31,595 bases of DNA, taken from positions 1-31,595 of IMG/VR virus record IMGVR_UViG_3300025646_000199; one strand, 5' to 3'. This DNA comes from a virus. A program made the position numbers and the translations under genes. Below the pieces are notes generated by a model. It saw only the letters and a list, made by a program, of their open reading frames with translations. It made no database searches and was not told the DNA's origin. Shown one piece after another: positions 12,395-31,595 of the stretch; position 1 is the first letter of the stretch, and every line of letters starts with the position of its first letter.

Positions 12395-15300
12395 TTACTC
12401 AGTAATCTCTTTATACTTGTCGTAAAGTTTATTCCCAATAGTTGTCAGAGATTCAGCATTAAAGTGGACTCTAGTTCCGTCAGTGAAGCTTAATCCATCA
12501 ACATCAACTAAATAAGCATTAAGTTCTGCTCTAGCTGCTGCTGTCTCTTGTTGTGTTTGAACGTCCGAAACATACGGGAATGACACAGACTCTAGCTCAC
12601 TATGGACTTTTGTAAAGATTACAGGGATGTCCGGGGCGTCTGGTGTTCCGAGGCTTTCCTTAATATCTTGTTGGAGTCTGGGGTATAAGAGTTCGGTGAA
12701 GCACTGATCCCACTCCTGAGCCATGTCTCCAGGATTAGTGTAAGGCGTGCCCGGGAACGTTGAGTTGCCTGATTCAAATTCACCTTGCATCATCAAGATA
12801 GCCTTAACTGTAACCTTAGCGTAGGAAGGCCCTCTCAAAGCAGAGATAGCTGCTGAAGTATCAAGCTTCAGAGTGGAGTATAAATCATAACCTTGGAATC
12901 CTGGTAATGTGGTATTTCTAGTCCAAGAGAGTAGGTCAACTGGTGAAGGTAGTCCACTAAGCATTGATGTTCCTCCCTTAGTATTCTTGATGAGATATAC
13001 ATCGTCATTAAGGTCATCTGCCATTCTCTGCATAAATTGCATGACGGGATCATAATATCTATGGGAATAGAAGTTAAATCGGAATTGAGGATCAATCGGT
13101 TCAGGACTACCATAAAGCTCATACCTAGTTGTGTTATATCCACCATAGCTTTGGTTCGAGATATTTACTGGGTCTAAGTATTCCCAAGTTCCTGCGCTGG
13201 CTAAGAAGCTCTCAGGCATCCAGATCTTAGTTCTTGCTTGGGCTCTTCTGAATCTTTCAGGAACTCCTGGGTCTTCATAAGTTGCTGACACTCCGTCAAT
13301 GTTGCTCTGGCCGATTGCGATAATGATATTATATTCATTATTTACGCCATCTAGGTTCTTGTATAATTTACTTTGAACTGAATAATTAAAACTTAATTCT
13401 TTTTGAGTTAGCGGTTTACTATAAAACTTTGTGCTACCTAAGAATCCTCGTAAACCACTGCGAACTCCTCCGTAATCTCCGCCCATGAAGTTACCAGTCT
13501 TAGACATTCCGTCTGTGTAACCTCCGCCTAGAATCCATGGAGTAAAGTAGCTGTTCAGCCTTGGGCCAGTTTTTAGAGATGCAGGAGCTAAATATCCAAC
13601 AGTATCTTGGGAGTATTCAAAGCTATTTTGTTTTTTAAATGTTGGTAAATTAATTGGTTTTGTTGGAGAAGATCCAAAAACTTGTGATATAGAAGACGTA
13701 GATAAAAGCTCAGAATCTAAAAATAAACTAACGGTATCAGTCTTATAGTTGAAGGTAAGAGATAGCTGGCAGAAACCCTTTGAGCAATCTTCTAAAGTTT
13801 TACCTGAATCTGTCTGTGTAGTTAAAGGAACATACATGCCTAACCAACCTGAAGTGTTCAAACAGGTATTTTGGGCTTTTGCTTTTGCTATGAAAGCGAC
13901 TGAAGAAGAGTCGTATCCGATTGTAGGTGCTAATATAAAGCCTCCATCCTCGCCTTTCTGTAGGCTGCCATCGTTAGTAGGTCCAGACTGACCTCTCCAT
14001 CTAAGGTCTCGGGTGAAGCCCATGATTAGACCTTTAGTAAAATCAGATCCATCGGTATAACCAACATTAAGTATATCTTCCGAGGGAGATCTGGTTACTG
14101 AAGAAAGTGATCCAGTATTTTCGCAAGCAAGGATTAGTCTGTAAAGACTTGAGGTATCTAGACCATCGTCCCAGGAGGCATCAAAGGTTAAATACGGAGC
14201 ATAGACCCAAGTATCAAAGGTTGCCCCTGATTTAGAGTATAGCCAGTCCTGGTATTCTTCAGTGTCTGGTAATTTTACATAACTACCTAGAGCTGAAGGG
14301 TAGATTCCATAGTTTCTAGTTATACCTTCTAAATATGCTGCCCCTAGTCCATACCCAAAGCCAAAAGAGGCTTGATCAGATTTACCGAAAACAAATTCAG
14401 CATTAGGTGCTACTAGTTGAGCATTATTGTAATCATCTGTGGTCTTACAGTTTAAAACATTAAAATCAAGAGAGCTCGGTATTGTTGTTTTACTATTTAA
14501 AAAGTTGTAAACTGATATTAAGTTATCAGTAGTCACTACATCACTTATGGCAAGTTCCAAGCTACTAGAGTCATTGGGATCTCTATCATCAATGATTATT
14601 CCACCAATGCCCACTTCAGGAACTATCAGGTGTTCGATCGTCTCGGTGGCGTCTGGGGACTTGCTAACTACAAATGTTGGCTTCAATGGTAAGACTACAC
14701 CGGAAACATCCTCTTGATTCAAGATTAAGTTTTTTTGTGTATTCAAAGACAGAGAAATATTACAATCTTGTAGATAAGAGAAATCATTAATTGGAACTTT
14801 CCCAGGCGCGGGGCTTGTGCCTCTTCCAAAAATTGTAGGAGCTCTGAAAGCAATTTCTATTTGCTTTTTCCTTCTGTTTATTTTACTATTGTGATAAGCA
14901 ACTTCACTTAATAAACTTTGTTTAAAATTTTCTATTATTGAAAGAGATGCTTCTGATTCTATCAGATTATCAATTTGTTTGTTTATATCTAATATTCTTT
15001 TTTCTTTTTGTCCGTCTAAAACTTGTAAAAAATGATCTCTATTGTAGTGCTCTTGTAGATCCTCAGAATCATCAATTATATTTTCATCAAAGACAGTATT
15101 TATCCACTTATTAAAAGTTTTTGAGTTTATTTGGTCACCTTTCCCTCCAACATTTGGAGGGAAGTTAAACTTCCACTTTTCTGCTTCCCCTATTGATGCA
15201 CTAGTATCTGATATAAATAGTAAGACTGGCTCTAGCTCGTTGTCCGTTTGTGAATTATAATAGAGTCCGTCTGTAGTTAGGATATATCTACCATTAGTTG

Positions 15301-16087
15301 TCTCTGGTGGCCCATAAACTAGCCTGATGATTTCCTCTCCTGTATCATCCTCGTCAGTTGATTGCACTCTGAAACTTGTTCCTGAGACTAAGTTAGCAAA
15401 TCTTGCATCTATTTCTGGTTCTGCATCTGGGTCTAGCTCTCTTCTGGCTATCTCAGTTCGTATAACCGATACAACATTACTTATTGCTGCTGCTTCAGCC
15501 ACAATAGCACTTACTTGAGCGGAGTATCTACTGTAAGCCGCTGCAACTTGAGAGTCGTATTGTTCATTCGTAAGGTTAGCCGCAGCCTCATCTGCGCCCA
15601 ATCCATTTTTGAAGCGTTGAATATTTTTAAACTTTTCTAGGCATTGCTTAATAGATTGAAGTCTCTGATATTGGGATTCAATGTTTCTGTAGAGGTTGCC
15701 TCCAACTTGGGCTGCTGCGTCAAGGCCATTTAATAAATCTAGGAATGCGTTAGTTTCTCTTACTTCTTCCTTAGCATCCGTATTTGCAAGCAAATCAGAA
15801 CTATTAGACTCGAACTGTATTCGACCATCTTTAGTTACATAACTAACTACGCCACTACGGAAAGAAAAAGTGTTATAGATTGATGCTAGCGCAGAATCAG
15901 CCTTAGCCTCGGCTGACTCTCCCGACCCTAAAACTTGATTTAGAACAGATCTTGGTATCAACGCGACTGCTTCAGCAGTTAGCTGCTTCAAGCATGAAGG
16001 GAAGCCAAAACTTGTTTGTATTGAGTCTAGAAGATTACCGTCTCTTCCTACTACACTTGCAAATAAGTTTATATCAAAGTTTGCCAT
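12395..16087 (-). CDS. Baseplate-associated protein with LamG-like and SGNH carbohydrate O-acetylesterase domains (1230 aa)
   Basis: The start overlaps the stop of the spike gene (TAATG). Residues ~1-440 look like a baseplate-anchoring region: an FGFPSCLKQLTAEAVALIP motif near the N-terminus, long Ala-rich helices at ~105-215 and a charged helix at ~350-410. Residues ~560-895 look like a LamG/concanavalin sandwich ending in the typical RGFLGSTKFYSKPLTQKEL motif. Residues ~915-1230 match the sialate/acetylxylan esterase branch of SGNH hydrolases: block I IIIAIGQSN with the presumed nucleophile Ser928, block II KGGTS at 1037-1041, block III MMQGE at 1099-1103, and block V TDGTRVHFN with Asp1203 and His1208. 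All expected blocks are present in order, so the enzyme is probably active, removing O-acetyl groups from surface glycans near the tail tip. The substrate is unknown. The fold calls are inferred from motifs. Confidence 0.87.
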   Translation of the reverse strand: MANFDINLFASVVGRDGNLLDSIQTSFGFPSCLKQLTAEAVALIPRSVLNQVLGSGESAEAKADSALASIYNTFSFRSGVVSYVTKDGRIQFESNSSDLLANTDAKEEVRETNAFLDLLNGLDAAAQVGGNLYRNIESQYQRLQSIKQCLEKFKNIQRFKNGLGADEAAANLTNEQYDSQVAAAYSRYSAQVSAIVAEAAAISNVVSVIRTEIARRELDPDAEPEIDARFANLVSGTSFRVQSTDEDDTGEEIIRLVYGPPETTNGRYILTTDGLYYNSQTDNELEPVLLFISDTSASIGEAEKWKFNFPPNVGGKGDQINSKTFNKWINTVFDENIIDDSEDLQEHYNRDHFLQVLDGQKEKRILDINKQIDNLIESEASLSIIENFKQSLLSEVAYHNSKINRRKKQIEIAFRAPTIFGRGTSPAPGKVPINDFSYLQDCNISLSLNTQKNLILNQEDVSGVVLPLKPTFVVSKSPDATETIEHLIVPEVGIGGIIIDDRDPNDSSSLELAISDVVTTDNLISVYNFLNSKTTIPSSLDFNVLNCKTTDDYNNAQLVAPNAEFVFGKSDQASFGFGYGLGAAYLEGITRNYGIYPSALGSYVKLPDTEEYQDWLYSKSGATFDTWVYAPYLTFDASWDDGLDTSSLYRLILACENTGSLSSVTRSPSEDILNVGYTDGSDFTKGLIMGFTRDLRWRGQSGPTNDGSLQKGEDGGFILAPTIGYDSSSVAFIAKAKAQNTCLNTSGWLGMYVPLTTQTDSGKTLEDCSKGFCQLSLTFNYKTDTVSLFLDSELLSTSSISQVFGSSPTKPINLPTFKKQNSFEYSQDTVGYLAPASLKTGPRLNSYFTPWILGGGYTDGMSKTGNFMGGDYGGVRSGLRGFLGSTKFYSKPLTQKELSFNYSVQSKLYKNLDGVNNEYNIIIAIGQSNIDGVSATYEDPGVPERFRRAQARTKIWMPESFLASAGTWEYLDPVNISNQSYGGYNTTRYELYGSPEPIDPQFRFNFYSHRYYDPVMQFMQRMADDLNDDVYLIKNTKGGTSMLSGLPSPVDLLSWTRNTTLPGFQGYDLYSTLKLDTSAAISALRGPSYAKVTVKAILMMQGEFESGNSTFPGTPYTNPGDMAQEWDQCFTELLYPRLQQDIKESLGTPDAPDIPVIFTKVHSELESVSFPYVSDVQTQQETAAARAELNAYLVDVDGLSFTDGTRVHFNAESLTTIGNKLYDKYKEITE

Positions 16088-19978: not shown

Positions 19979-20878
19979 TTAAGCTCTAGGGTCTAGAGTT
20001 CCTGCCCTAAATAAAGACTCCCAAGTTGGGATATTGTCGTCTGCGACTCCCTTGTTTTTTGGGTTATGGTATGTGAAATCTCCCACTCTAACTTCATTCA
20101 TACTAAGATTAATTTTAACTCTTCTTGGTAGTAGTGTTACAGTATCATACCCTGAATTATCATCCATTTCAATATTGTATTTGGTGACAATACACGGAAT
20201 GTCTTTATACATAGCTCCAAAATTCAATCTAAGGATTGGAGGTCCTAAACCAATTTCTTCACTTCCTATTACGCTAGATCTAACTAAATTTATAAAAAAT
20301 AGGTAGGCCCCTCTAACACCTTGTGGATCACTATTTAAGTCTCTAAAGTCTAAAAATCTCTCTTCAAAGTTTTTAATAGATTGTCTTGCTTTTAGTGGAC
20401 CAATTTCTTCAAAAGTATCAGAGATTACTTCAGGTTCTGCTGTTGTATTTTTTCTAGCTAAACCTAGCCTATCAGCTTCATCAAAAATGTCTAACAAAGA
20501 AGGTTCAGATATCTGATTAAGTTTTCTATCATTACCTAAGAAAGTAAACTTGCGATTTTGTTTTGGTAATGCTTTAGGAAAACTTTCTAAAAAATGAAAT
20601 AAGTGTGGTAGAGTGAAGCTAAACTGCAATTCAAATTGTCTAGAATCTGCTCCTAGATATGAATATAAATCACTGTTTCTTCCTATTAATTTATAAGTAG
20701 AAAGTCTACTTGATTTCATTTCGATGATGGTAGGGTTTTCATAAAAAGGCATTTTAATTTTATTACTGCTAGTAATACTTTTAGAGTTACTCTTGCCTTT
20801 CTCTGGGAAGATAAACTCTATCCAGCCTTTCTTATGTAATTGCCTATCTCTGATTTCTTTATCGCCGTAAGCTGTCAT
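19979..20878 (-). CDS. Tail tube/baseplate adaptor protein, probably gp48/gp54 or Mu gp43 equivalent
   Basis: This 299-residue protein begins immediately after the tape measure with an ATGA overlap. Residues ~42-95 have a beta-rich pattern (MPFYENPTIIEMKSSRLSTY, then LYSYLGADSRQFELQFSFTL), and residues ~214-263 have LRLNFGAMYKDIPCIVTKYN followed by LLPRRVKINLSMNEVR. The combination 'ENP.I.E...S....Y......Y.Y.GA.SR.F.L.F' plus a final 'I.LS..EVR' strand is what I know from tube-initiator/tube-cap proteins that connect the tail tube to the hub. The middle (~105-185) is a charged helical insertion. Location and motifs support a role in starting tube polymerisation on the baseplate. Which of gp48 or gp54 it matches cannot be told by reading. 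Confidence 0.75.
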   Translation of the reverse strand: MTAYGDKEIRDRQLHKKGWIEFIFPEKGKSNSKSITSSNKIKMPFYENPTIIEMKSSRLSTYKLIGRNSDLYSYLGADSRQFELQFSFTLPHLFHFLESFPKALPKQNRKFTFLGNDRKLNQISEPSLLDIFDEADRLGLARKNTTAEPEVISDTFEEIGPLKARQSIKNFEERFLDFRDLNSDPQGVRGAYLFFINLVRSSVIGSEEIGLGPPILRLNFGAMYKDIPCIVTKYNIEMDDNSGYDTVTLLPRRVKINLSMNEVRVGDFTYHNPKNKGVADDNIPTWESLFRAGTLDPRA

Positions 20879-22755
20879 TTTGATCCATCTCCTGATTTAG
20901 CGTTATTCCATCTGAACTTGGTATCCATCATTAGATCAGATTGTCTTTCTAACTGTTCAGCTATAGTTCGTAAATAAAGATTCTGTTTAACCATCTCATA
21001 CCTAGCATTTTCAGCGGTCATGTCAACACTTAAGTCTCTGTTAGACTTTTTGATTATCTCAGATAGAATCTTAGCATGAGACATAGAGTATCTCCTGGCT
21101 TCATTCTCTAAATCAGAAAATTTTTGTTGTCTAACATCATTCGCTAAAACATCTGTATCTTGAGCTATTGGTGCGAGGGCATCAACTATACTTTTTTCTA
21201 AATCAGTTACTGTGTCTCTTATCATTTTAAACCAATCCCCACTTACCAAACCAGGAGGGAGAATAGACGTAATATATGTCGTAGCATCAGCTACAAATTT
21301 ATCAATCTGTGCTTTACTAATACTCATATAAGTCGTCATAAAGCCTGTGATCTGTTGCCACAATTGGCTCATCAAGGATTGAATCCCTCCTGCTGGAGTG
21401 AACGCACTCACCAGAGAGCCTAGAGCAATTAGACCTGGATTTTGAAAGGCTAAAGTTACCACAGAAGTTGCCATAGCCAGTAAACCAGCAGCTATTGTAA
21501 GTAAAGGACCAACTAGGAGAGCTATCGGAGCTAAAGCCAAGGATACAGCCGCTAAACCCGCGACAACTACTCCTACAGCAGCAGCAATTAAACCTAGTTT
21601 ACTCAAGGCTTCTGGCCCCCACTTATCGACTAATCTTTCTAGATATAGGAATATACCATTTTTTAATACCGAGAACCCATCGAACAAATGTTTCATTAGC
21701 TTCTCAACACTGAGTTGAGCGTCGTTTATAGAAGCAATTTTTTCAATATTATTTTTGTTTTGTTGTATAGATTGTTCAGCTATTCTTAAAGTTTCTATTT
21801 GATTTAAATTAAGAAGTGTTACTTTCTCTATCAAATCAGACGTAAGAATATTAGATTGAACATCTCCACTAACAAACTGGTCACGGAAAGACACAAAAGC
21901 TTTCAGTATCTTTTGAAGGTTTTCTACTTGTTCTGCTTGACTACCCACACCTGCCTGAAGTCTTTGTAGTTCAGCCCCTACCCCAAGGGCTCCTGCAAGT
22001 CTAATAGATTCAGGGCCTCTGGTAAGTAAGGGCTCTAGTGCTGTTTGTAGAGCGTCAGGGGCTACCCTATCAACCATACCTTGGACCAACGTAATAAGTC
22101 TAGCTGTCTCTGGGTTAACTCGGGTATTAGTTACAGCTAAAACATTGGATAAGGATAGTAAGCCTCTTAAAACACTTTCACTAGAAGTTTTATAAGTTCC
22201 CGCAGCAGTAGAAACTGCGTCAATAAGCATAACTTGGGTTTTATCATTTAGCCCTAAGTTATTTTTTAGTCCTCTAAGATTAAAAGTAACTTGCTCTAGA
22301 TTCTCTCCAAGAATCTCTGATCTAGCTAAAAACAGGGATAAACTTTCAGAGTTTCTCTCTAACCCAGCTTGGAATAAAGCTAATCGAACAGTATTAGCTG
22401 TTGTTACTGGGACAAGGGCTTTTAAATCTCCACCAAGCTCTTTCATTGCTGCACTAGCAAATTTATTACCAGCAACTTGAGCAACGTTAGTCGTAAATAA
22501 ATCACTAAAATTTTGTTTTAATTGTTGAAGTTCATTATCTATCGCACCGAACCCTGCCGATAAGCTTTTCATACTAGTCTGACTAGTTTTTAAGCTTATT
22601 CCTAAAACTTCAGATGCTCTAGTATTTAAACGAAGATAAGCTGTTTGTTGTTTTAGAAAACTGTTAATATCAGTTAATTCCTCTGTAACGCTTTTACTCT
22701 GGTCTCTGCCTTTTCTAAGCTCTTCTATTAGGTCACTTGCTTTTCTATCGTCCAT
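20875..22755 (-). CDS. Tail tape measure protein
   Basis: The 626 residues are mostly helical, with heptad-like stretches at ~1-45, ~65-100, ~270-345 and ~540-610. A strongly hydrophobic block lies at ~386-455 (GLIAAAVGVVVAGLAAVSLA, then LAPIALLVGPLLTIAAGLLA), with two or three potential membrane helices. This architecture, the position first among the core baseplate genes and the overlap with the tube adaptor identify a tape measure protein, which sets tail length and helps DNA pass the inner membrane. The length is close to T4 gp29 (590 residues), so the tail may be of similar length, roughly 100 nm; that is an inference from the usual ~1.5 A per residue. The start ATG lies one base after the preceding stop, with AGGGA nearby. 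Confidence 0.9.
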   Translation of the reverse strand: MDDRKASDLIEELRKGRDQSKSVTEELTDINSFLKQQTAYLRLNTRASEVLGISLKTSQTSMKSLSAGFGAIDNELQQLKQNFSDLFTTNVAQVAGNKFASAAMKELGGDLKALVPVTTANTVRLALFQAGLERNSESLSLFLARSEILGENLEQVTFNLRGLKNNLGLNDKTQVMLIDAVSTAAGTYKTSSESVLRGLLSLSNVLAVTNTRVNPETARLITLVQGMVDRVAPDALQTALEPLLTRGPESIRLAGALGVGAELQRLQAGVGSQAEQVENLQKILKAFVSFRDQFVSGDVQSNILTSDLIEKVTLLNLNQIETLRIAEQSIQQNKNNIEKIASINDAQLSVEKLMKHLFDGFSVLKNGIFLYLERLVDKWGPEALSKLGLIAAAVGVVVAGLAAVSLALAPIALLVGPLLTIAAGLLAMATSVVTLAFQNPGLIALGSLVSAFTPAGGIQSLMSQLWQQITGFMTTYMSISKAQIDKFVADATTYITSILPPGLVSGDWFKMIRDTVTDLEKSIVDALAPIAQDTDVLANDVRQQKFSDLENEARRYSMSHAKILSEIIKKSNRDLSVDMTAENARYEMVKQNLYLRTIAEQLERQSDLMMDTKFRWNNAKSGDGSK

Positions 22756-24398: not shown

Positions 24399-25376
24399 AT
24401 GATTTCTCCCAGTCTAATTATAGAATTTTTGAAGAAAAACTTCGAGCCTAACCTAAAGTATGTCTCGGGCGGGCGTGAGATAACTATCAACTCGATCTTT
24501 GCACCAGACTATAAAATGCACATGTCAGTCAACACTGACACTGGGCTTTGGCAATGCTTCAAGTCTGGGAAGCGTGGTAACTTTATTCAGCTTGTCGCTT
24601 CCGTCGAAGGTTGCACATACGAGCGTGCGCGAGCGAATGTCATCTTCGATAGCATCAAGAGTATCCACGAGGAGGAGACCCCGCTTGAACCTGCACAGAA
24701 GATCTTCTACTCAATTGACGAGTTCAAGGAAGAGTTCAAGTGTCTTGAGCTTCATCACTTCGTAGACGCTCCTGAGACGTTCAAATACATTGGAGATGTC
24801 ATCTTCGATCGCAAGCTAGATCGGATTGCATTTGACGAGAACAGACCTTGGTTCGCATCTGTAGAAGGTCGCTATGCAGGAAGGATTCTGATCCCCTTCT
24901 ATGCAGACAATCATATCTTCTACTTCCAGGGTCGCTCCTTCCTCCCATCCATGTCTCCGAAGTATCTCAACCACAGCGCCGTGAGAGCCTCTGAGATCCT
25001 CTACCCGTTCGATTGGTCCCAAGAGAGGGTGGTCGTCACGGAAGGCCCTGTGGACGCTGCTACGCTCCAGGATTGCGGTGTAAATGCCACAGCTATCATG
25101 GGGGCGAGAATCTCCAAGAGGCAGGCACGACAGCTTCGTGAATTTGGTGGCGCGATCCTGTTGTCTATGGATAACGATGAGGCTGGGAAACAGGCGATGA
25201 TGGACAACTTTAAGTTCATCACGAGGCAAGGCATTCCATCCAAGAAGGTTAGTTTTCTCCCGTGCCCACGCGCGAAAGACTGGAATGAGCTATACCAAAA
25301 AGAAGACGCGACAGCCGTTAAGACCGCCGCGTCTTCAGGTTTAAGTGAGTTATACTATCGCCTTTATACTAGTTGA
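24399..25376 (+). CDS. DNA primase, T4 gp61/DnaG-like, TOPRIM domain
   Basis: This 325-residue protein, close in length to T4 gp61 (342), has a TOPRIM core: RVVVTEGPVDAATL (Glu215), then ILLSMDNDEAG (Asp258, Asp260), and a final AKDWNELY element near 292-299. Residues ~30-75 align in layout with the zinc-binding primase N-terminus (MHMSVNTDTGLWQCFKSGKR, GNFIQLVAS), but only Cys53 of the usual metal ligands is present, so this finger appears degenerate. It would make RNA primers for lagging-strand synthesis with a helicase not in this window. AGGAA six to seven bases ahead of the ATG lies inside the divergent nuclease gene. The 3' end overlaps the convergent structural gene by 13 bases. Composition is G+C-richer than the tail genes. 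An alternative is a TOPRIM-containing helicase-primase fragment, but there is no ATPase domain. Confidence 0.85.
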   Translation: MISPSLIIEFLKKNFEPNLKYVSGGREITINSIFAPDYKMHMSVNTDTGLWQCFKSGKRGNFIQLVASVEGCTYERARANVIFDSIKSIHEEETPLEPAQKIFYSIDEFKEEFKCLELHHFVDAPETFKYIGDVIFDRKLDRIAFDENRPWFASVEGRYAGRILIPFYADNHIFYFQGRSFLPSMSPKYLNHSAVRASEILYPFDWSQERVVVTEGPVDAATLQDCGVNATAIMGARISKRQARQLREFGGAILLSMDNDEAGKQAMMDNFKFITRQGIPSKKVSFLPCPRAKDWNELYQKEDATAVKTAASSGLSELYYRLYTS

Positions 25377-26845
25377 ACATACATTTGTGGTGCCACAATG
25401 GTTTCATTCAGCAAATTATATTTAAGTGTTACAGCGTAAATTCCACGCAGCCCGGAGATCGTCCCCGCTGCTATGGATGCGTGATATCTTAGTTGTTCAG
25501 TATTCCAATTGTAGATGAACGTGTTCTGTGAAGTAACTCTAATGTCTTGTTCATCTGTAAAGTCTACTATCGTTGTTCTGCCCGGTAAGTTCGGGTCTTG
25601 ATTAATCTTCTCAATCTTAATCTTCGGGTTAATTGCTACTGCTGTCTTGAACAGATTTCTTATTGAACTGTTAATGTTCTTGTTCTCTACAGTGAATTCA
25701 GTGGTTATCTTAATATCTTGTTTACTGCCCAAGACCACTTTCTTCGTAATGAGTTCATTATGAGACTTTATAAGAAGTGGTTCGGTTAAATTGTAGAAAG
25801 TATCGTTGAATAGTGAGAATGAGTTTATAACAACTTTTGGTAGTGAAGCTGCTGGATATTTAACTGTCCATACATCAATGTAATCACCTGTAGCTGATGC
25901 GGTGTTATTAATTACGTTGCCCCAAATTGGGTGAAGTCCTGGGATATTTGTGACCCCATCAAGAACTACGATATACTCACCCTGACGAACTCTATAAACG
26001 CCCGAAGAGCCTAAATCTCCTGCGACATACTCGCTAATATCTTGCCAACCCGGTAGTATAGGTGATTTAAAGTAAGCTTTTGCTAGCCCTGAAGCTACTT
26101 CTCCCTTAAGTAATCCGTCTGCTCCCAATATAGTTGATGGGTTTTGCATTGATGATCTATCAAAAATAGTTACATCTACAATTTCTGTAGGATCAATGTA
26201 TTCTCCATCATTCATGAAGAATACTTTCAATGCAACTCTGCTATCTACGCTCGGTCTATTATTTCTATCTACTGTTTGTGTAGAAATCGCTACAGATCCT
26301 TGAGAAGCATTTGCTTCTGCTATTAAAGGATCATCACAAGTTCTACAGGTTTTAGGATCAGATGGAGAAGAGCAATTTAAAATTAAATTTGGTATCTTAG
26401 TTGCTAAAGAGCTTACTAAGTTATCAATAAAATCAAAAGAATTTATTGTGTTTTCTAAAGGAAAAATATTTGAATTTGGTTGTAAAGATACTGTATTAGC
26501 TAATAGATCCCAAATTTGCTTCCATCCAGCATTTGATGGGTAAGCAGTCGATCCTCCTGATACTGGGTTTATTGTAAATGGTATTCCTATTGAGTCAGAA
26601 GAAACGGTTAAACTTGTGATGCTGCATTCTGGGTCACATGCAGTATAACAATTTTCTACTAAAGTAAATTCTACTACCCTAGTGTCATTAGTTTCGTCGT
26701 TATCACAAAAAACTTCTGTAGATACAGCAGTATCATAGCAACTTCGAATTTGCGTGACATCCCAAACTACATCGAGTGTTGATGTAGTTAAATCATCAAA
26801 CGACATCAAAAAGAATACTTTATTTACTGTTTGGCAATAACTCAT
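25364..26845 (-). CDS. Putative virion structural protein, 493 aa, Cys-rich N-terminus, beta-rich C-terminus
   Basis: AAGG lies ahead of the ATG at 26845, 13 bases after the stop of the preceding gene. The N-terminal third has nine cysteines, including the pattern TRV-x8-C66-x3-C70, C74 and a C158...C167-x2-C170 cluster. The same TRV-x8-C-x3-C spacing, a QIW/RIW helix and a final C-x2-C occur in the neighbouring 198-residue protein, so they look paralogous. Residues ~190-493 are beta-rich, including VVLGSKQDIKITTEFTVEN and a final IYAVTLKYNLLNETIVAPQM segment that resembles phage sheath/decoration beta sandwiches. I do not recognise the family. There is no signal peptide. AT-rich composition and strand match the late genes. 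Structural role is inferred. Confidence 0.78.
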   Translation of the reverse strand: MSYCQTVNKVFFLMSFDDLTTSTLDVVWDVTQIRSCYDTAVSTEVFCDNDETNDTRVVEFTLVENCYTACDPECSITSLTVSSDSIGIPFTINPVSGGSTAYPSNAGWKQIWDLLANTVSLQPNSNIFPLENTINSFDFIDNLVSSLATKIPNLILNCSSPSDPKTCRTCDDPLIAEANASQGSVAISTQTVDRNNRPSVDSRVALKVFFMNDGEYIDPTEIVDVTIFDRSSMQNPSTILGADGLLKGEVASGLAKAYFKSPILPGWQDISEYVAGDLGSSGVYRVRQGEYIVVLDGVTNIPGLHPIWGNVINNTASATGDYIDVWTVKYPAASLPKVVINSFSLFNDTFYNLTEPLLIKSHNELITKKVVLGSKQDIKITTEFTVENKNINSSIRNLFKTAVAINPKIKIEKINQDPNLPGRTTIVDFTDEQDIRVTSQNTFIYNWNTEQLRYHASIAAGTISGLRGIYAVTLKYNLLNETIVAPQMYVQLV

Positions 26846-26858
26846 TTTTAAACCTTAG

Positions 26859-27455
26859 TTAAACTATATCCACAATAAGTTCACACGTCTTACATGCTAG
26901 ATCTGCTTTTGAACACCCAGGAAAATTAATTACAGCATCTAATCTCTTATCTAATTTTGTAATCAATGACAAGAGTAGATCTTTATTTATAGAAGGATCA
27001 TTTAGCGGACGCCAATTATTATTTTTTTTCTTCGTTAAAATTTTTCCATTAAATAGACCACCTGCCCCCTCTAAGACTTGCCAAATTCTAGTCACAACGG
27101 ATGATTCACCATCTTGTCCAATTGAAAGAAAGTCGCCATTGTCTAAGGCGACTTGTTCAAAGTAAACATGAGGTCTGGCACAAATTTCACCAGACAACTT
27201 TTTACGAACACTGCAAGGCTTACCGCATTTTGTATACTTAGAATAAGAAAAAACCCTAGTTTTGGCATTCGTTGGGTTATCAACCCCATAAAATTCTTTT
27301 GATCCTACCTTAGAGCATATAGTTGAGTTAATAGCAGTTATAAATAAAGAAAAGTAAGGAGGCAGATCTTTACCTAAACGACCTGGTATATAAGTTATAT
27401 GCCCTTTAACTTTTAATATAGTAATGCACTCTCCATTGTTGTCATAATCACTCAT
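26859..27455 (-). CDS. Cysteine-rich protein, 198 aa, paralogue of next gene's N-terminal domain
   Basis: The start ATG at 27455 follows AGGTTAACT, seven bases after the stop of the frameshift extension. The protein has eight cysteines: C10, C47, C77-x3-C81, C92, C181, C188-x2-C191. A basic stretch (KILTKKKNNNW) lies near residue 140. The spacing TRV-x8-C77-x3-C81 and a RIWQVLEG helix are shared with the 493-residue protein, but the long C-terminal beta region of that protein is missing here. A metal-binding or disulfide-stabilised structural protein is likely. The function is unknown. The gene is co-transcribed with the gp26-type chaperone upstream and the larger paralogue downstream. Confidence 0.72.
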   Translation of the reverse strand: MSDYDNNGECITILKVKGHITYIPGRLGKDLPPYFSLFITAINSTICSKVGSKEFYGVDNPTNAKTRVFSYSKYTKCGKPCSVRKKLSGEICARPHVYFEQVALDNGDFLSIGQDGESSVVTRIWQVLEGAGGLFNGKILTKKKNNNWRPLNDPSINKDLLLSLITKLDKRLDAVINFPGCSKADLACKTCELIVDIV

Positions 27456-27462
27456 AGTTAAC

Positions 27463-27657
27463 CTACCTAGATTTAGATTTGTCTAATTGACGTTTTTCTT
27501 CGTCTTTTTCTTTCTTAAAGTGAGTTAAGAAAGAGAGTCTTTCTAAACGAGTCATTGATTTTACATCTGCATATGTAAATCTACAATGTCTTACAAGTAT
27601 ATATGCCTCCAAAGATAAATTTTCTTGTGAAGCAGAATTACTTGTTATTTCATTGTA
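27463..27657 (-). CDS. Probable -1 frameshift extension of the gp26-type gene (64 aa, no own start)
   Basis: After the T7 run, the -1 frame reads on for 64 residues (YNEITSNSAS... to ...QLDKSKSR) to a TAG at 27463. The frame has no ATG ahead of the helix: upstream lies a TGA directly before the T run, and the only in-frame ATG is internal (MTRLERLSF) without a Shine-Dalgarno. A TTG (at LEAY) is a weak alternative start. The peptide contains LEAYILVRHCRFTYADV, then a basic KKEKDEEKRQ helix. Its composition and amphipathic pattern look coding. It would be fused to the first 248 residues of the gp26-type protein, giving about 312 residues. Gene geometry mirrors the lambda gpG/gpGT and P2 gpE/E+E' pairs. 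The product is inferred, not proven. Confidence 0.65.
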   Translation of the reverse strand, partial: YNEITSNSASQENLSLEAYILVRHCRFTYADVKSMTRLERLSFLTHFKKEKDEEKRQLDKSKSR

Positions 27658-28400
27658 AAAAAATCACTGGTAAGTTTTAGCTCCTCCAATTCTTGGTGCC
27701 CACAGTTAGCGCAAACAAACAGGAACTTTTGATCTATGCCAATATCGGATAGCGTTACATGCTTAATTATAAAATGAACATCTTTTCTAGGTAAGTAGTC
27801 AATTACTTGAGCCCTTACTTTAGCATTAGTGATGCCCTCTATCTCAATCATGAATCTCCAAAGCTCATTTAGAATTTTCATCTGATCTTGTTCTAGATCA
27901 GAAGATGATGCTCTTCTAATGACAACTTCCTTACCACTTTCTGGTAATTTAAGCTTTACTGTCCTTTCGACAGGCTCTTCTGCATACTTGCAAGGGAAAG
28001 TATTGATAATATCAACTACGTTTTCGTTTATTGATTCACACTGATTGCAAGTAATGTTAAAACTATATTCATTTCCAACAGAAATAGCTCTTAAATGGAA
28101 AAGGATTGCTAGCTTATCTTGCATTAATAAATTTTTAGGATTAATATTCTCTTCAACACACCTAGAGAGTAGAATATCCATGCCTTCCTTCTTTTTAGCT
28201 GCGGCGACGGCCTTCTCGTCCGCAAAGGTCATTGGCCTTACGTGCAGGTAAGGAGTCTCTAAACCGTATAGAGCAGTTGCTAAACTTGGCAGCTTAACCT
28301 CAGAGTATTCTACCTTTGGAATACCACCTAAGATGTTACTTACTAAGTCATCGACGTTTTGATTATCTAAATCTGGGGTAATATGCTTTACTTCTGACAT
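27645..28400 (-). CDS. T4 gp26/gp51-type baseplate assembly protein (probable tail assembly chaperone)
   Basis: I start at the ATG at 28400 (AAGGTGA just ahead), giving 251 residues. An upstream in-frame ATG at 28463 would run across the divergent helicase promoter and start and is unlikely. The protein has a LHVRPMTFADEKAVAAAKK motif, a helix with LFHLRAISVGNEYSFNITC, and two CxxC pairs (Cys118/Cys121 and Cys230/Cys233, predicted zinc-binding). The 'ITCxxC' block and the 'DEK' region are typical of T4-like gp26/gp51 baseplate hub assembly proteins. The last codons contain a slippery T7 run, so ribosomes may extend the protein by 64 residues. It is divergent from the helicase gene, separated from the tape measure gene by about 5 kb. 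Confidence 0.78.
   Translation of the reverse strand: MSEVKHITPDLDNQNVDDLVSNILGGIPKVEYSEVKLPSLATALYGLETPYLHVRPMTFADEKAVAAAKKKEGMDILLSRCVEENINPKNLLMQDKLAILFHLRAISVGNEYSFNITCNQCESINENVVDIINTFPCKYAEEPVERTVKLKLPESGKEVVIRRASSSDLEQDQMKILNELWRFMIEIEGITNAKVRAQVIDYLPRKDVHFIIKHVTLSDIGIDQKFLFVCANCGHQELEELKLTSDFFTMK
27657..27663 (-). promoter_or_regulatory. Slippery heptamer T_TTT_TTT for -1 programmed frameshifting
   Basis: On the minus strand, codons GAT TTT TTT ACA ATG AAA TAA end the gp26-type gene. The seven T residues form a perfect X_XXY_YYZ heptamer in the zero frame. A -1 slip re-pairs Phe tRNAs exactly and enters the 64-residue frame with TAC as the next codon. A Shine-Dalgarno-like GGAGGAG (27687-27681) lies 17 bases upstream, longer than the 10 bases in E. 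coli dnaX but a possible stimulator. I found no clear downstream hairpin. Confidence 0.68.
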
Positions 28401-28432: not shown

Positions 28433-29848
28433 ATGCTGCTAAAAATTGGTAAATTAAAGACACAAATCATAACAAATAATGATGAACTGCTAAAAGCATT
28501 GCAGCATCATTACAGCGCCCAATATCCTGGGGCTAGCTATGTCCGTCGCGGGCGCGGGTGGGACGGCAAGAAATACTTCGTTAGCCCTAAAGGAGTATTT
28601 AGCACCGGACTGTTAGAAGATGTTTGTTTGTCCCTCAACAAGCTAGGTATCAAGTATGAGTTAGAGTGGTTTGAGTCCGATGCTCCCACACCAAGCCTTC
28701 TGCCGGTCGAGAATTACTCTCTAAGGGATTATCAGCAGGAAAGCGTATCCGAGGCCCTAAACCGCAAGCGATTGGTTGTGAAGTCTCCTACAGGCTCAGG
28801 GAAGACTCTGATCATGGCGCAGTTAGTAAACTGCTTCCCGGACTCCATGATCACCATCCTGTTCAACAGCAAGCATCTGCTGACCCAGAGCTATGAGTTC
28901 TTCAAGTCCTGTGGGATTGAGGGTCTGGGTATCAACTTTGGAGACGGATTTCAGCATGGGCGTGTGATGCTATCCACTGTCCAAAGCATCAAGAATATCA
29001 TTGATCCCTATGTCACTGAGTCCAAAGTCCTGATGGTAGATGAGGTCCACGAGTTCTGCACAGGTAAGGTCACACTAGCAGCAATCAGTGCTTTCCCAGA
29101 AGCAGAGTTCAGATTTGGATTTACGGCCACCCCACCCAAGGACAAGTATCCACTCCTAAACCTGAAGTCTGCCATAGGACCTATCCATGAGGTTGTTTCT
29201 GTTCAGGAACTGATTGAGGAAGGCAATCTAACCAAGCCAATCATCAAGACAATTAATTTCAAATATTCTGAACAAACTCTTGAAGATTCCTGGTATACGA
29301 GCTATAACGATGTCTACGATGAATATGTTGTCGGAGACGAAGAGAAAGAAAGATATCTTGTAGAGCTAATTAGAGACAACATACATCTTGGGCAATCACA
29401 AAAACATCTAGTCCTCGTCAAATCTCTTGAGCACCTAAGTCGAACTAAAAAAGCTCTAGAGAAGGCGGGACTAGATGTTTTTACTATCGAGGGTAAGGAT
29501 CAGCTATCTGATCGGTATGAGTCGATCAATAAGTTCTTAAAATCTAAGAATGGTATCCTGATTGGGACACGAGTGTTACAAACAGGAATCAGCATTGACG
29601 AGATCACACACTTTTACAATATTAGAGAATTGAAGAGCGAGATCGCTACAATTCAAGCTCTCGGTCGCGCCCTACGCACGCACGAAACTAAACCAACGGT
29701 TTATGTTTGTGATTTCGGATCAACGAATGTTCGCTACCTTCAAGATCATTTTAAGAAGCGACTAACCACCTACAAGAAGGAAGGATACGAGGTAATTAAG
29801 CATGAATACACCATCGGAGCTAGAGAAGAAAGCGGGCCAACTAACTGA
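28433..29848 (+). CDS. uvsW: SF2 ATP-dependent DNA helicase, T4 UvsW-like
   Basis: This 471-residue protein has a UvsW-like N-terminal domain (RRGRGWDGKKYFVSPKGVFS) and then all main SF2 motifs: LRDYQQESV (Q-like motif, ~97-105), Walker A SPTGSGKT (118-125), DEVH box (203-206), TATP (231-234), a C-terminal RecA domain with IEGKDQLSDRYESI and GILIGTRVLQTGISI, and motif VI QALGRALR (408-415). T4 UvsW drives branch migration, unwinds R-loops and D-loops, and helps shift replication from origin- to recombination-dependent mode. The start is the only candidate ATG (an in-frame TAG lies just upstream). The gene is G+C-richer than the structural genes. Its 3' end overlaps the next small gene by 47 bases. 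Confidence 0.9.
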   Translation: MLLKIGKLKTQIITNNDELLKALQHHYSAQYPGASYVRRGRGWDGKKYFVSPKGVFSTGLLEDVCLSLNKLGIKYELEWFESDAPTPSLLPVENYSLRDYQQESVSEALNRKRLVVKSPTGSGKTLIMAQLVNCFPDSMITILFNSKHLLTQSYEFFKSCGIEGLGINFGDGFQHGRVMLSTVQSIKNIIDPYVTESKVLMVDEVHEFCTGKVTLAAISAFPEAEFRFGFTATPPKDKYPLLNLKSAIGPIHEVVSVQELIEEGNLTKPIIKTINFKYSEQTLEDSWYTSYNDVYDEYVVGDEEKERYLVELIRDNIHLGQSQKHLVLVKSLEHLSRTKKALEKAGLDVFTIEGKDQLSDRYESINKFLKSKNGILIGTRVLQTGISIDEITHFYNIRELKSEIATIQALGRALRTHETKPTVYVCDFGSTNVRYLQDHFKKRLTTYKKEGYEVIKHEYTIGAREESGPTN

Positions 29849-30029
29849 TACAGAAGTGATTCGATTAGAAGAAATCACTAATCAGCTATCAACGTTGACC
29901 AAGAACAAGCAGTTCACGGAAGAGAACCTGAAGAGCTTGCAGAACGTTATTCACGAACTGCTGATCTTTCAGGATCTCTTCTTCACTAGACTTATCACGC
30001 TCATGAAGCGTGGTTATAAGCTTAATTAG
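29802..30029 (+). CDS. Small helical protein, 75 aa, overlapping helicase 3' end
   Basis: The ATG at 29802 lies inside the last helicase codons and has GAGGT about nine bases ahead, a good ribosome site. The product (MNTPSELEKKAGQLTDTEVI to LMKRGYKLN) is predicted helical with a possible coiled-coil (VIRLEEITNQLSTLTKNKQF). T4-like phages often have a small accessory gene next to uvsW (uvsW.1), but I cannot show homology. Its stop TAG shares four bases (TTAG) with the stop of the convergent tail-fibre gene. Co-transcribed with the helicase. Confidence 0.65.
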   Translation: MNTPSELEKKAGQLTDTEVIRLEEITNQLSTLTKNKQFTEENLKSLQNVIHELLIFQDLFFTRLITLMKRGYKLN

Positions 30030-31595
30030 TGAACAAAGTTTTGTGGTAGCCAGTCAGCAATATAGACTCCATAAATGTCTAACCACATTGAGCCATAGGT
30101 TTGACCAGCACCTATAGCTTGGATAAATGCTCTCATAGCTCGGTTAGCACCAGACGCTGGGATATTTGTCGTATGCTTTGCTAGTAGGGTTCCGCCATTA
30201 GTGCAGTCATAGAAACCAATACCGATAGCTCCACCACCTTCATCAGTAACCTTTATAGCATACCATCTAAAGGTCCCAGCAAATGTGGTCCCTGCTAGGC
30301 TGGTTGATGTCGTGGTTCTTGTTCCACCTGCTGCGGTGACGACTTGAATATCTGTATCGGTTGCAGGAGCAAATTCAAAGTAAGCTCCATTGTTTGGAGT
30401 AGCTGTTGCTCCTAAAGCATCGTTACAAACACCAAATCTAACTTTAATGTTTGTAGCTCTGTTCGCAGTGCATCTAAAATAATGGGTGGTCCCCGCGATC
30501 AAGTAGGTAGATAAGTTGGTGTGATATTTAGTCGCACCAGCAGTGGACGCTGTTCCAGTATTGTTACTCGCAGTCATAACGCCTTGAATATCAACACCTT
30601 CACAGATCCCTCCTGACTGTCCTTGGTTTTGTTGGTAAGTAGCTCCACCGTTAGCCACGCTAGCTGTCCAGTTACCGTTCTGGTCATGGGGGAGTAAGTG
30701 GTCCCAAACAACATCTAAAGCCATGTTCTCCCATGTAGCAGATAGGTTGCCTACATCTAGGGCACCATCAATCCGTTGGTTACCCGTGATATCTCGCGCA
30801 CCTGTAGCTAGAACATATTGAGTGTGGTCGTCATCATCCAAACCATCAATACTTCCGTGATCAACTTGAGTCCAAGCGTTATCTTTTCTTCCGTAAGTGT
30901 TGCCGTTTGCGGGAGCATCAGCTACAGTTGCCATTCCTGACAATCCAAGATTATCTCTAGCTGTGGCATGGTTAGGAAGATCAAGTAAGTTTTGTGCAAG
31001 AAGTGGGAAGCTTGTTAGAGCCCAAGAAGCAGTTACAGCATCTTGAGTTCCTACTGGATCTCCGAGGTTTGTGATTCTGTTAGTTCCTGCGCTAATGTTG
31101 CCTGTTAGGGCTCTAGTGCCATCTGCTCTTAGGTATTGAGTGTGATCGTCATCACCTAAGCCTGCGACGCTACCATGGTCGATTGATGCGACGGTAAAGT
31201 GAACAGAGCCGGAAGCAACGTGGTTGTCTAGTTTAGTTCCGTCAGCAGCGATGTCACGACCATCTACAGTTCCTGTGACAGCAATGTTCCCTGTCACACT
31301 CAAGCTATTCATGCTTCTAGCCCCTGTGGCTAGCACGTATTGAGTGTGGTCATCGTCTCCGAGTCCTGCAATGCTACCATGGTGGATTGATGCTTCAGTA
31401 AAGTGAACAGATCCTGAAGCAATGTGGTTAGTTACAAGACTACTAAGTGATTGATTAGTTGCACTTAGAACATATTGAGGGTGATCATTGTCAGCTAGTC
31501 CTGCAATGCTGCCATGGTCAATTGATGCAACAGTAAAGTGAACAGAGCCTGAAGCAACGTGGTTATCTAGCTTAGTCCCATCAGCAGCAATGTCT
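30026..31595 (-). CDS. Repeat-containing tail fibre protein, N-terminus outside window
   Basis: The frame is open from the right edge to a TAA at 30026, giving 522 complete codons, so the start is outside. A GTG at 31336 is not a credible start, because the coding pattern continues upstream without a break. The visible N-terminal ~290 residues are modules of the type DNHVASGSVHFTVASIDHGS, then AGLGDDDHTQY and a short linker (LATGARSMNSL, RADGTRALTGNI). DDDHTQY units of this sort are common in phage tail fibres and probably form a triple-stranded shaft. The last ~220 residues (from about WDHLLPHDQNGNWTASVANG) are beta-rich with lectin-like FRWYAIKVTDEGGG and GSMWLDIYGVYIADW, suggesting a C-terminal receptor-binding jelly roll. 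The gene converges on the helicase operon. Confidence 0.86.
   Translation of the reverse strand, partial: DIAADGTKLDNHVASGSVHFTVASIDHGSIAGLADNDHPQYVLSATNQSLSSLVTNHIASGSVHFTEASIHHGSIAGLGDDDHTQYVLATGARSMNSLSVTGNIAVTGTVDGRDIAADGTKLDNHVASGSVHFTVASIDHGSVAGLGDDDHTQYLRADGTRALTGNISAGTNRITNLGDPVGTQDAVTASWALTSFPLLAQNLLDLPNHATARDNLGLSGMATVADAPANGNTYGRKDNAWTQVDHGSIDGLDDDDHTQYVLATGARDITGNQRIDGALDVGNLSATWENMALDVVWDHLLPHDQNGNWTASVANGGATYQQNQGQSGGICEGVDIQGVMTASNNTGTASTAGATKYHTNLSTYLIAGTTHYFRCTANRATNIKVRFGVCNDALGATATPNNGAYFEFAPATDTDIQVVTAAGGTRTTTSTSLAGTTFAGTFRWYAIKVTDEGGGAIGIGFYDCTNGGTLLAKHTTNIPASGANRAMRAFIQAIGAGQTYGSMWLDIYGVYIADWLPQNFVH
31130..31594 (-). repeat. Tandem tail-fibre protein modules
   Basis: Three copies of an NH(V/I)ASGSVHFT...HGS(I/V)AGL..(D/N)DH(T/P)QY module lie in this stretch, and a shorter fourth (DHGSIDGLDDDDHTQY) lies near 30800-30880. 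The first and third begin with the same DIAADGTKLDNHVASGSVHF peptide, at 31594 and 31255, 339 bases (113 codons) apart. Their DNA differs mostly at third codon positions. The intervening copy begins LVTNHIASGSVHFTEASIHH. Confidence 0.85.

Follow-up and report, generated by a model that had tools for sequence, protein, structure and literature searches.

In bacteriophage T4, gp26 and gp51 are chaperones of baseplate hub assembly; they form an essential pair whose mechanism in hub assembly is unclear, with gp51 missing from the particle and without an assigned function (PMC3004832, 2010 review). The tail assembly chaperones of T4-like phages were identified by Vladimirov, Gautam and Davidson (2022, Virology 566:9-15, as cited in PMC10885494 and PMC12846349). 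According to these citing articles, some phages of the T4-like kind dispense with frameshifting and encode the short form and a longer fusion in separate genes (PMC10885494), and poly-T -1 signals occur in the TAC-N genes of T4-like phages (PMC12846349). Neither product of lambda G/GT is found in the virion (PMC5009743), and the chaperone gene of the Vandenendeviridae (phage Adele) has a conserved T-rich -1 site, its C-terminal part being misannotated as a hypothetical gene (PMC12846349). Here we describe a gp26-type gene in IMG/VR record IMGVR_UViG_3300025646_000199 (positions 1 to 31,595, the whole stretch analysed, hereafter the window). Judged from its sequence and its relatives, it is very probably a T4-related chaperone of a contractile tail that makes its long form by a -1 frameshift at a T_TTT_TTT heptamer.

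Credit for both the T4-like chaperones and their poly-T signals already goes to Vladimirov et al. (2022), so the core idea is known. A first-pass annotation of the window, made from the sequence alone, had stated that it knew of no frameshift described for proteins of the T4 gp26/gp51 type, which does not agree with the poly-T signals that the citing article attributes to that study. The window gene is a new, deep-branching chaperone of the gp26 type, while the principle of frameshifting itself is not new.

The gp26-type gene and its slippery site

The short form matches PF12322 (T4_baseplate, gp26/gp51) over residues 52-248 (E=1.8e-15, 57.7 bits at a cut-off of 24.5) and the baseplate hub family phrog_150 (E=5.8e-18). 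Its AlphaFold2 model (pLDDT 94) has fold matches in BFVD to phage baseplate hub (gp26-type) proteins, for example that of Bacillus phage SP-15. Among solved structures no match to the protein was found by sequence or by fold, and the fold is therefore not tied to solved chaperones.

On the minus strand the gene runs from an ATG (28400..28398) to a TAA (27647..27645) and ends with GAT (27665-27663) TTT TTT ACA ATG AAA TAA. The T run (27663..27657) stands in the canonical X_XXY_YYZ register, which suits simultaneous -1 slippage, and the -1 frame is shut by a TGA (27666-27664) directly 5' of it. Past the site, the -1 frame reads FF followed by YNEITSNSASQ...LDKSKSR, these 64 residues being YNEITSNSASQENLSLEAYILVRHCRFTYADVKSMTRLERLSFLTHFKKEKDEEKRQLDKSKSR. 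Fusion of the short form to the extension gives a predicted long form of 312 aa with the predicted fusion peptide LTSDFFYNEITS. The window therefore shows what is expected of a canonical -1 site, namely an in-frame X_XXY_YYZ near the end of the frame and a -1 frame that stays open past the stop. All coordinates agree with the first-pass annotation as to the in-frame heptamer at the gene end, the 64-residue -1 frame and the TGA just before the T run. Its remark that the -1 frame has no start codon holds for ATG, which occurs only within the conserved tail core, but not for TTG, which is present once (27612-27610) and lacks a Shine-Dalgarno-like (SD-like) sequence. Runs of seven T are no commoner in the AT-rich window than expected by chance (13 observed, 19.6 expected), so that the case for the window rests on register and conservation, that is, on comparison.

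Under the proposed mechanism, most ribosomes would read to the TAA and produce the 251-aa short form (G or TAC-N role), while some would shift back by one base at T_TTT_TTT, where both tRNA-Phe would pair anew with UUU, and would produce the 312-aa long form (GT or TAC-NC role) with its helical tail of 64 residues. By analogy with lambda, the part common to both forms may coat the tape measure protein and the tail may recruit tube subunits, after which both forms would leave. Slippage in this virus, its efficiency and the identity of the client proteins are inferred. A short and a C-terminally extended form of one protein, as in G/GT, are likewise predicted by comparison only.

Comparative evidence for the -1 extension

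What the sequences themselves show is the register of the heptamer, conservation of the site, conservation of the tail as coding sequence, and the homology of the short form to T4 gp26 and of the long form to T4 gp51. A search of IMG/VR with the single window protein found no relatives, and alignment queries were required; tblastn against phages together with IMG/VR scans using alignments yielded 267 loci, phage records and the window included, which dereplication at 90% identity reduced to 226 gp26-type loci. L-numbers (L003, L059, L185 and so on) denote loci of this set. Tail frames were assigned locus by locus with a profile built from -1 tails. A homologous helical tail follows the gp26 stop; its frame is -1 at 130 loci and +1 at 95, and one locus was left unassigned.

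The sites of the 130 loci are T_TTT_TTN (127), A_AAT_TTT (2) and a tandem duplication (1, L185). The comparison of homologous gp26 loci, which the first-pass annotation had suggested as a check, thus shows the -1 tail together with an in-frame canonical heptamer in 129/129 non-duplicated dereplicated loci. T_TTT_TTY was found at none of 32,464 other codon positions in the same genes (first 149 representatives). In the -1 class, 127/127 loci have T as the base preceding the T run, where 78.6 would be expected from codon use, a count that is partly true by definition of the heptamer, although the tail frame was assigned independently; the codon before FF encodes N, S (both codon families), D, A, G, Y or H. 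In the +1 class this base is T in 0/88 loci, with 46.4 expected from codon use.

Substitutions change frame at the site. Between close pairs, differences peak at zero-frame third positions upstream of it; past the stop the peak moves to third positions of the -1 frame in the window's group (548 vs 149 and 245) and likewise in cyanophage-type loci, and to third positions of the +1 frame in the type with TGG. In 186 of 190 loci, +1 tails included, a single frame matches the tail profile (8,894 control frames). Further matches of the profile are T4 gp51 (3.6e-6), Aeromonas AS-gz gp51 (4e-10) and the long form that L185 encodes in frame; T4 gp26 and AS-gz gp26 gave none. By this profile, the predicted long form consists of a gp26-like domain and a tail homologous to the C-terminus of T4 gp51. 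The conserved heptamer, the -1 tail, the change of substitution frame and the natural in-frame long forms strongly support the -1 frameshifted long form proposed in the first-pass annotation, and we regard this comparative evidence as decisive.

Two explanations invoke the homopolymer itself. An error of assembly or sequencing might have split one continuous gene, as the window is a single IMG/VR-type record of 31,595 bases and homopolymers are error-prone. The same frame relation is, however, found in more than 120 dereplicated contigs and in the isolate genomes of XacN1, RAS14, Atu_ph07, pf16, Syn1 and S-PM2, and in nearly all relatives a zero-frame stop lies within about 13 codons of the site. 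Error is already contradicted at the level of the family, and we give it practically no credence. Alternatively, RNA polymerase might slip on the T run, which lies exactly at the site, so that some transcripts with an altered number of U would carry the tail in frame. Most relatives have only T6C and two loci use A_AAT_TTT with five T, runs so short that they are generally poor slippage sites, and what is conserved is the tandem codon register; polymerase slippage is consequently most improbable.

The tail may instead be a separate small gene with its own start, translated by re-initiation just after the gp26 stop. This is how cyanophages are annotated: the records of S-PM2 and Syn1 list a 'gp51' product of 57 aa or 43 aa, and an ATG lies shortly past the stop in 55/74 cyanophage-type loci. 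Yet in each of the 80 cyanophage loci the -1 frame remains open across the slippery site. GenBank also calls the tail a gene of its own (gp51 or hypothetical) at L008:3262-3393, L014:2453-2626, L013:2435-2608 and L006:3226-3408, where the -1 frame is likewise open across the site. Of the 19 window-like loci, 15 lack any ATG, GTG or TTG upstream of the tail core, and in none is a start preceded by an SD. Re-initiation also leaves unexplained the T at the X base in 127/127 loci and its total avoidance in the +1 class, as well as the natural in-frame fusions (T4 gp51, L185). We therefore regard a separate gene as very unlikely; the first-pass annotation had named a tail with its own start as evidence that would overturn its proposal, and the window's group yielded none. 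In cyanophages, the small 'gp51' genes, or the unannotated gaps in their place, are most likely frameshift extensions.

In T4 the two forms come from two genes. PF12322 spans residues 1-206 of 208 in gp26 and residues 1-201 of 249 in gp51, and the two proteins align as paralogues. Since both belong to PF12322 and gp51 carries an extra tail, gp26 corresponds to the short form and gp51 to the long form. The first-pass annotation had read gp26-type proteins as the chaperone pair of this tail, and its interpretation was essentially right.

Several points weigh against frameshifting as proposed for the window, beginning with the candidate stimulators. A hairpin is predicted over and after the site (Table 1), and a sliding scan of the window has a local minimum of structure there (z -5.4; z -2.7 from 6 nt after the site), but window-like loci as a group show a modest excess of structured RNA downstream (mean z -1.14 vs -0.31), and other -1 groups a clearer one (z -1.83 and -1.75 vs -0.27 and -0.53). 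The GGAGGAG to which the first-pass annotation had drawn attention is indeed present (27687..27681) and ends exactly 17 nt 5' of the T run, but it is not conserved among the window's nearest relatives, SD-like 5-mers occurring at the site in 2/19 window-like loci. SD-like codon choice is strong both in the cyanophage (-1) types, where GAG is used in 54/65 and ends 9-11 nt upstream, and in the +1 (TGG) types, where GGAGG ends 17 nt upstream in 76/88. Moreover, the closest relative found for the window protein (IMG/VR) has about 37% protein identity, so that the exact site is not covered by near copies. Finally, the gene adjoins a helicase gene rather than standing between tube and tape measure genes, and the weakly matched tape measure candidate lies about 5 kb off. 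Gene position in two relatives speaks for the chaperone reading. The order is sheath, tube, gp26, [tail], tape measure in Listeria LIS04 and sheath, tube, tube, gp26, [tail], 143-codon frame, tape measure in L228; in both, gp26 occupies the classical chaperone place between tube and tape measure genes.

Other proposed routes to the long form

TTT or CTT followed by TGG is found in 88/95 of the +1 loci. In a large group (L062, L066, L075, L195-L274) the tail follows a conserved GAC/GAR TTT TTT TGG CCT, with a GGAGG that ends 17 nt upstream and strong synonymous codon bias (CCG, GCG, GAG) at the gp26 end. A -2 shift in place of +1 in the TTT_TGG class is disfavoured, as three loci of the group have CTT_TGG, which speaks against it. 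Tails in the +1 frame without TGG (L003:3150-3455, L005:3135-3500, L190, L086) have TTT_CGN, which is probably a further +1 site of the family, or CCC/ACC_CGA, the candidate +1 sites of Listeria LIS04 and Streptococcus GXN1.

A third route is duplication. At L185:2001-3628 a short gene ending in GCA GAA TTC TAA is followed by an ATG and a 295-aa copy with the tail, an arrangement also present in L186 and L187 (same contigs L276-L278). The short copy has no slippery site, the tail is fused in frame to the second copy, and this tail (residues 234-293) is predicted to be helical. T4 gp26 likewise has no slippery run (GAG TTC TTT). From sequence, the L185 duplication arose independently of T4 gp26/gp51 and parallels it.

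On a tree of 88 sequences with the site columns left out (a quick tree with several long branches), seven changes are required to account for the -1, +1 and duplication states, and the starred branches force at least three changes per frameshift direction and two for duplication. L059:3001-3741 (+1, GAC TTT TTT CGT) and L061:3001-3669 (-1, GAT TTT TTC CAT) are sisters with full support; what sets them apart is an indel of 2 nt next to the site and the base that precedes the T run. On balance we think that the family keeps its two-form output and repeatedly swaps the mechanism, between -1 at T_TTT_TTN, -1 at A_AAT_TTT, +1 at TTT/CTT_TGG (and probably TTT_CGN) and duplication (T4 and, independently and in tandem, L185), and that such switching is genuine and has so far gone undescribed. 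In the literature reachable outside most subscription journals, we found no earlier account of -1/+1/duplication switching or of the tandem case.

The family offers a natural experiment: the protein output stays the same although frameshifting flips direction or gives way to duplication. The slippery-site arrangement is shared by hundreds of related viruses. For an uncharacterised T4-like lineage, the data identify the gp26 gene as the one that encodes the tail assembly chaperone, and they make T4 gp26 and gp51 a testable short/long pair.

Genomic setting and relation to known systems

The features of the window are collected in Table 1. A UvsW-like helicase gene likewise lies beside gp26 in L031 (phrog_16, E=3.6e-70). 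Directly downstream of the chaperone gene, positions 25364-27455 hold two genes (493 and 198 aa) with no PHROG or Pfam match. Elsewhere in the window, a fibre-like protein at 30026-31594 with repeated DGTKLDNHVASGSVHFTVASIDHGSIAGL..DDDHTQY units runs off the contig end, and a 1230-aa protein at 12395-16087 has a IIIAIGQSNIDG motif in its C-terminal third that, by eye only, recalls SGNH/acetylesterase domains.

Table 1. Coordinates of the chaperone locus and associated features in the window.
Feature	Position	Strand	Evidence
gp26-type tail assembly chaperone, short form, 251 aa	27645..28400	-	PF12322, phrog_150, AlphaFold2, BFVD
Slippery heptamer T_TTT_TTT, zero frame, 3 sense codons ahead of stop	27657..27663	-	Sequence; conservation
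-1 frame extension, FF + 64 residues, TAG stop 27465..27463	27463..27663	-	Tail profile, codon periodicity in relatives
Predicted RNA hairpin overlapping and following the slippery site, possible stimulator	27580..27659	-	z -5.6
GGAGGAG, SD-like, 17 nt 5' of T run, putative stimulator	27681..27687	-	Sequence
Candidate tape measure protein, expected chaperone client	20875..22755	-	phrog_167, weak, E=0.0012
Divergent UvsW-like helicase gene, adjoins chaperone gene	28433..29848	+	phrog_16 DNA helicase, E=3.2e-69

Compared with known systems, P2 E/E+E' resembles the window in its contractile tail, its T-rich -1 site and its short and extended chaperone, but belongs to another protein family. The slippery sequence of lambda G/GT differs from that of the window, and the likeness is one of analogy, with no sequence similarity claimed; in that sense the parallel in geometry drawn to both systems by the first-pass annotation is sound. 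Phage Adele has the motif GTTTTT where the window has T_TTT_TTT, and its likeness to the window lies in the frameshift site. In the +1 frameshift of E. coli prfB, a P-site CUU slips onto UUU before a slow A-site codon. A similar slip is proposed for the +1 relatives (TTT/CTT_TGG), which have TGG rather than a stop codon in the A site and an SD-like element 17 nt upstream, whereas the window itself is of the -1 kind. The T4-like chaperones share with the window the PF12322 family, the tail domain and the presence of short and long forms; T4 differs in having no frameshift and two genes on opposite strands, and the window phage represents a distant lineage.
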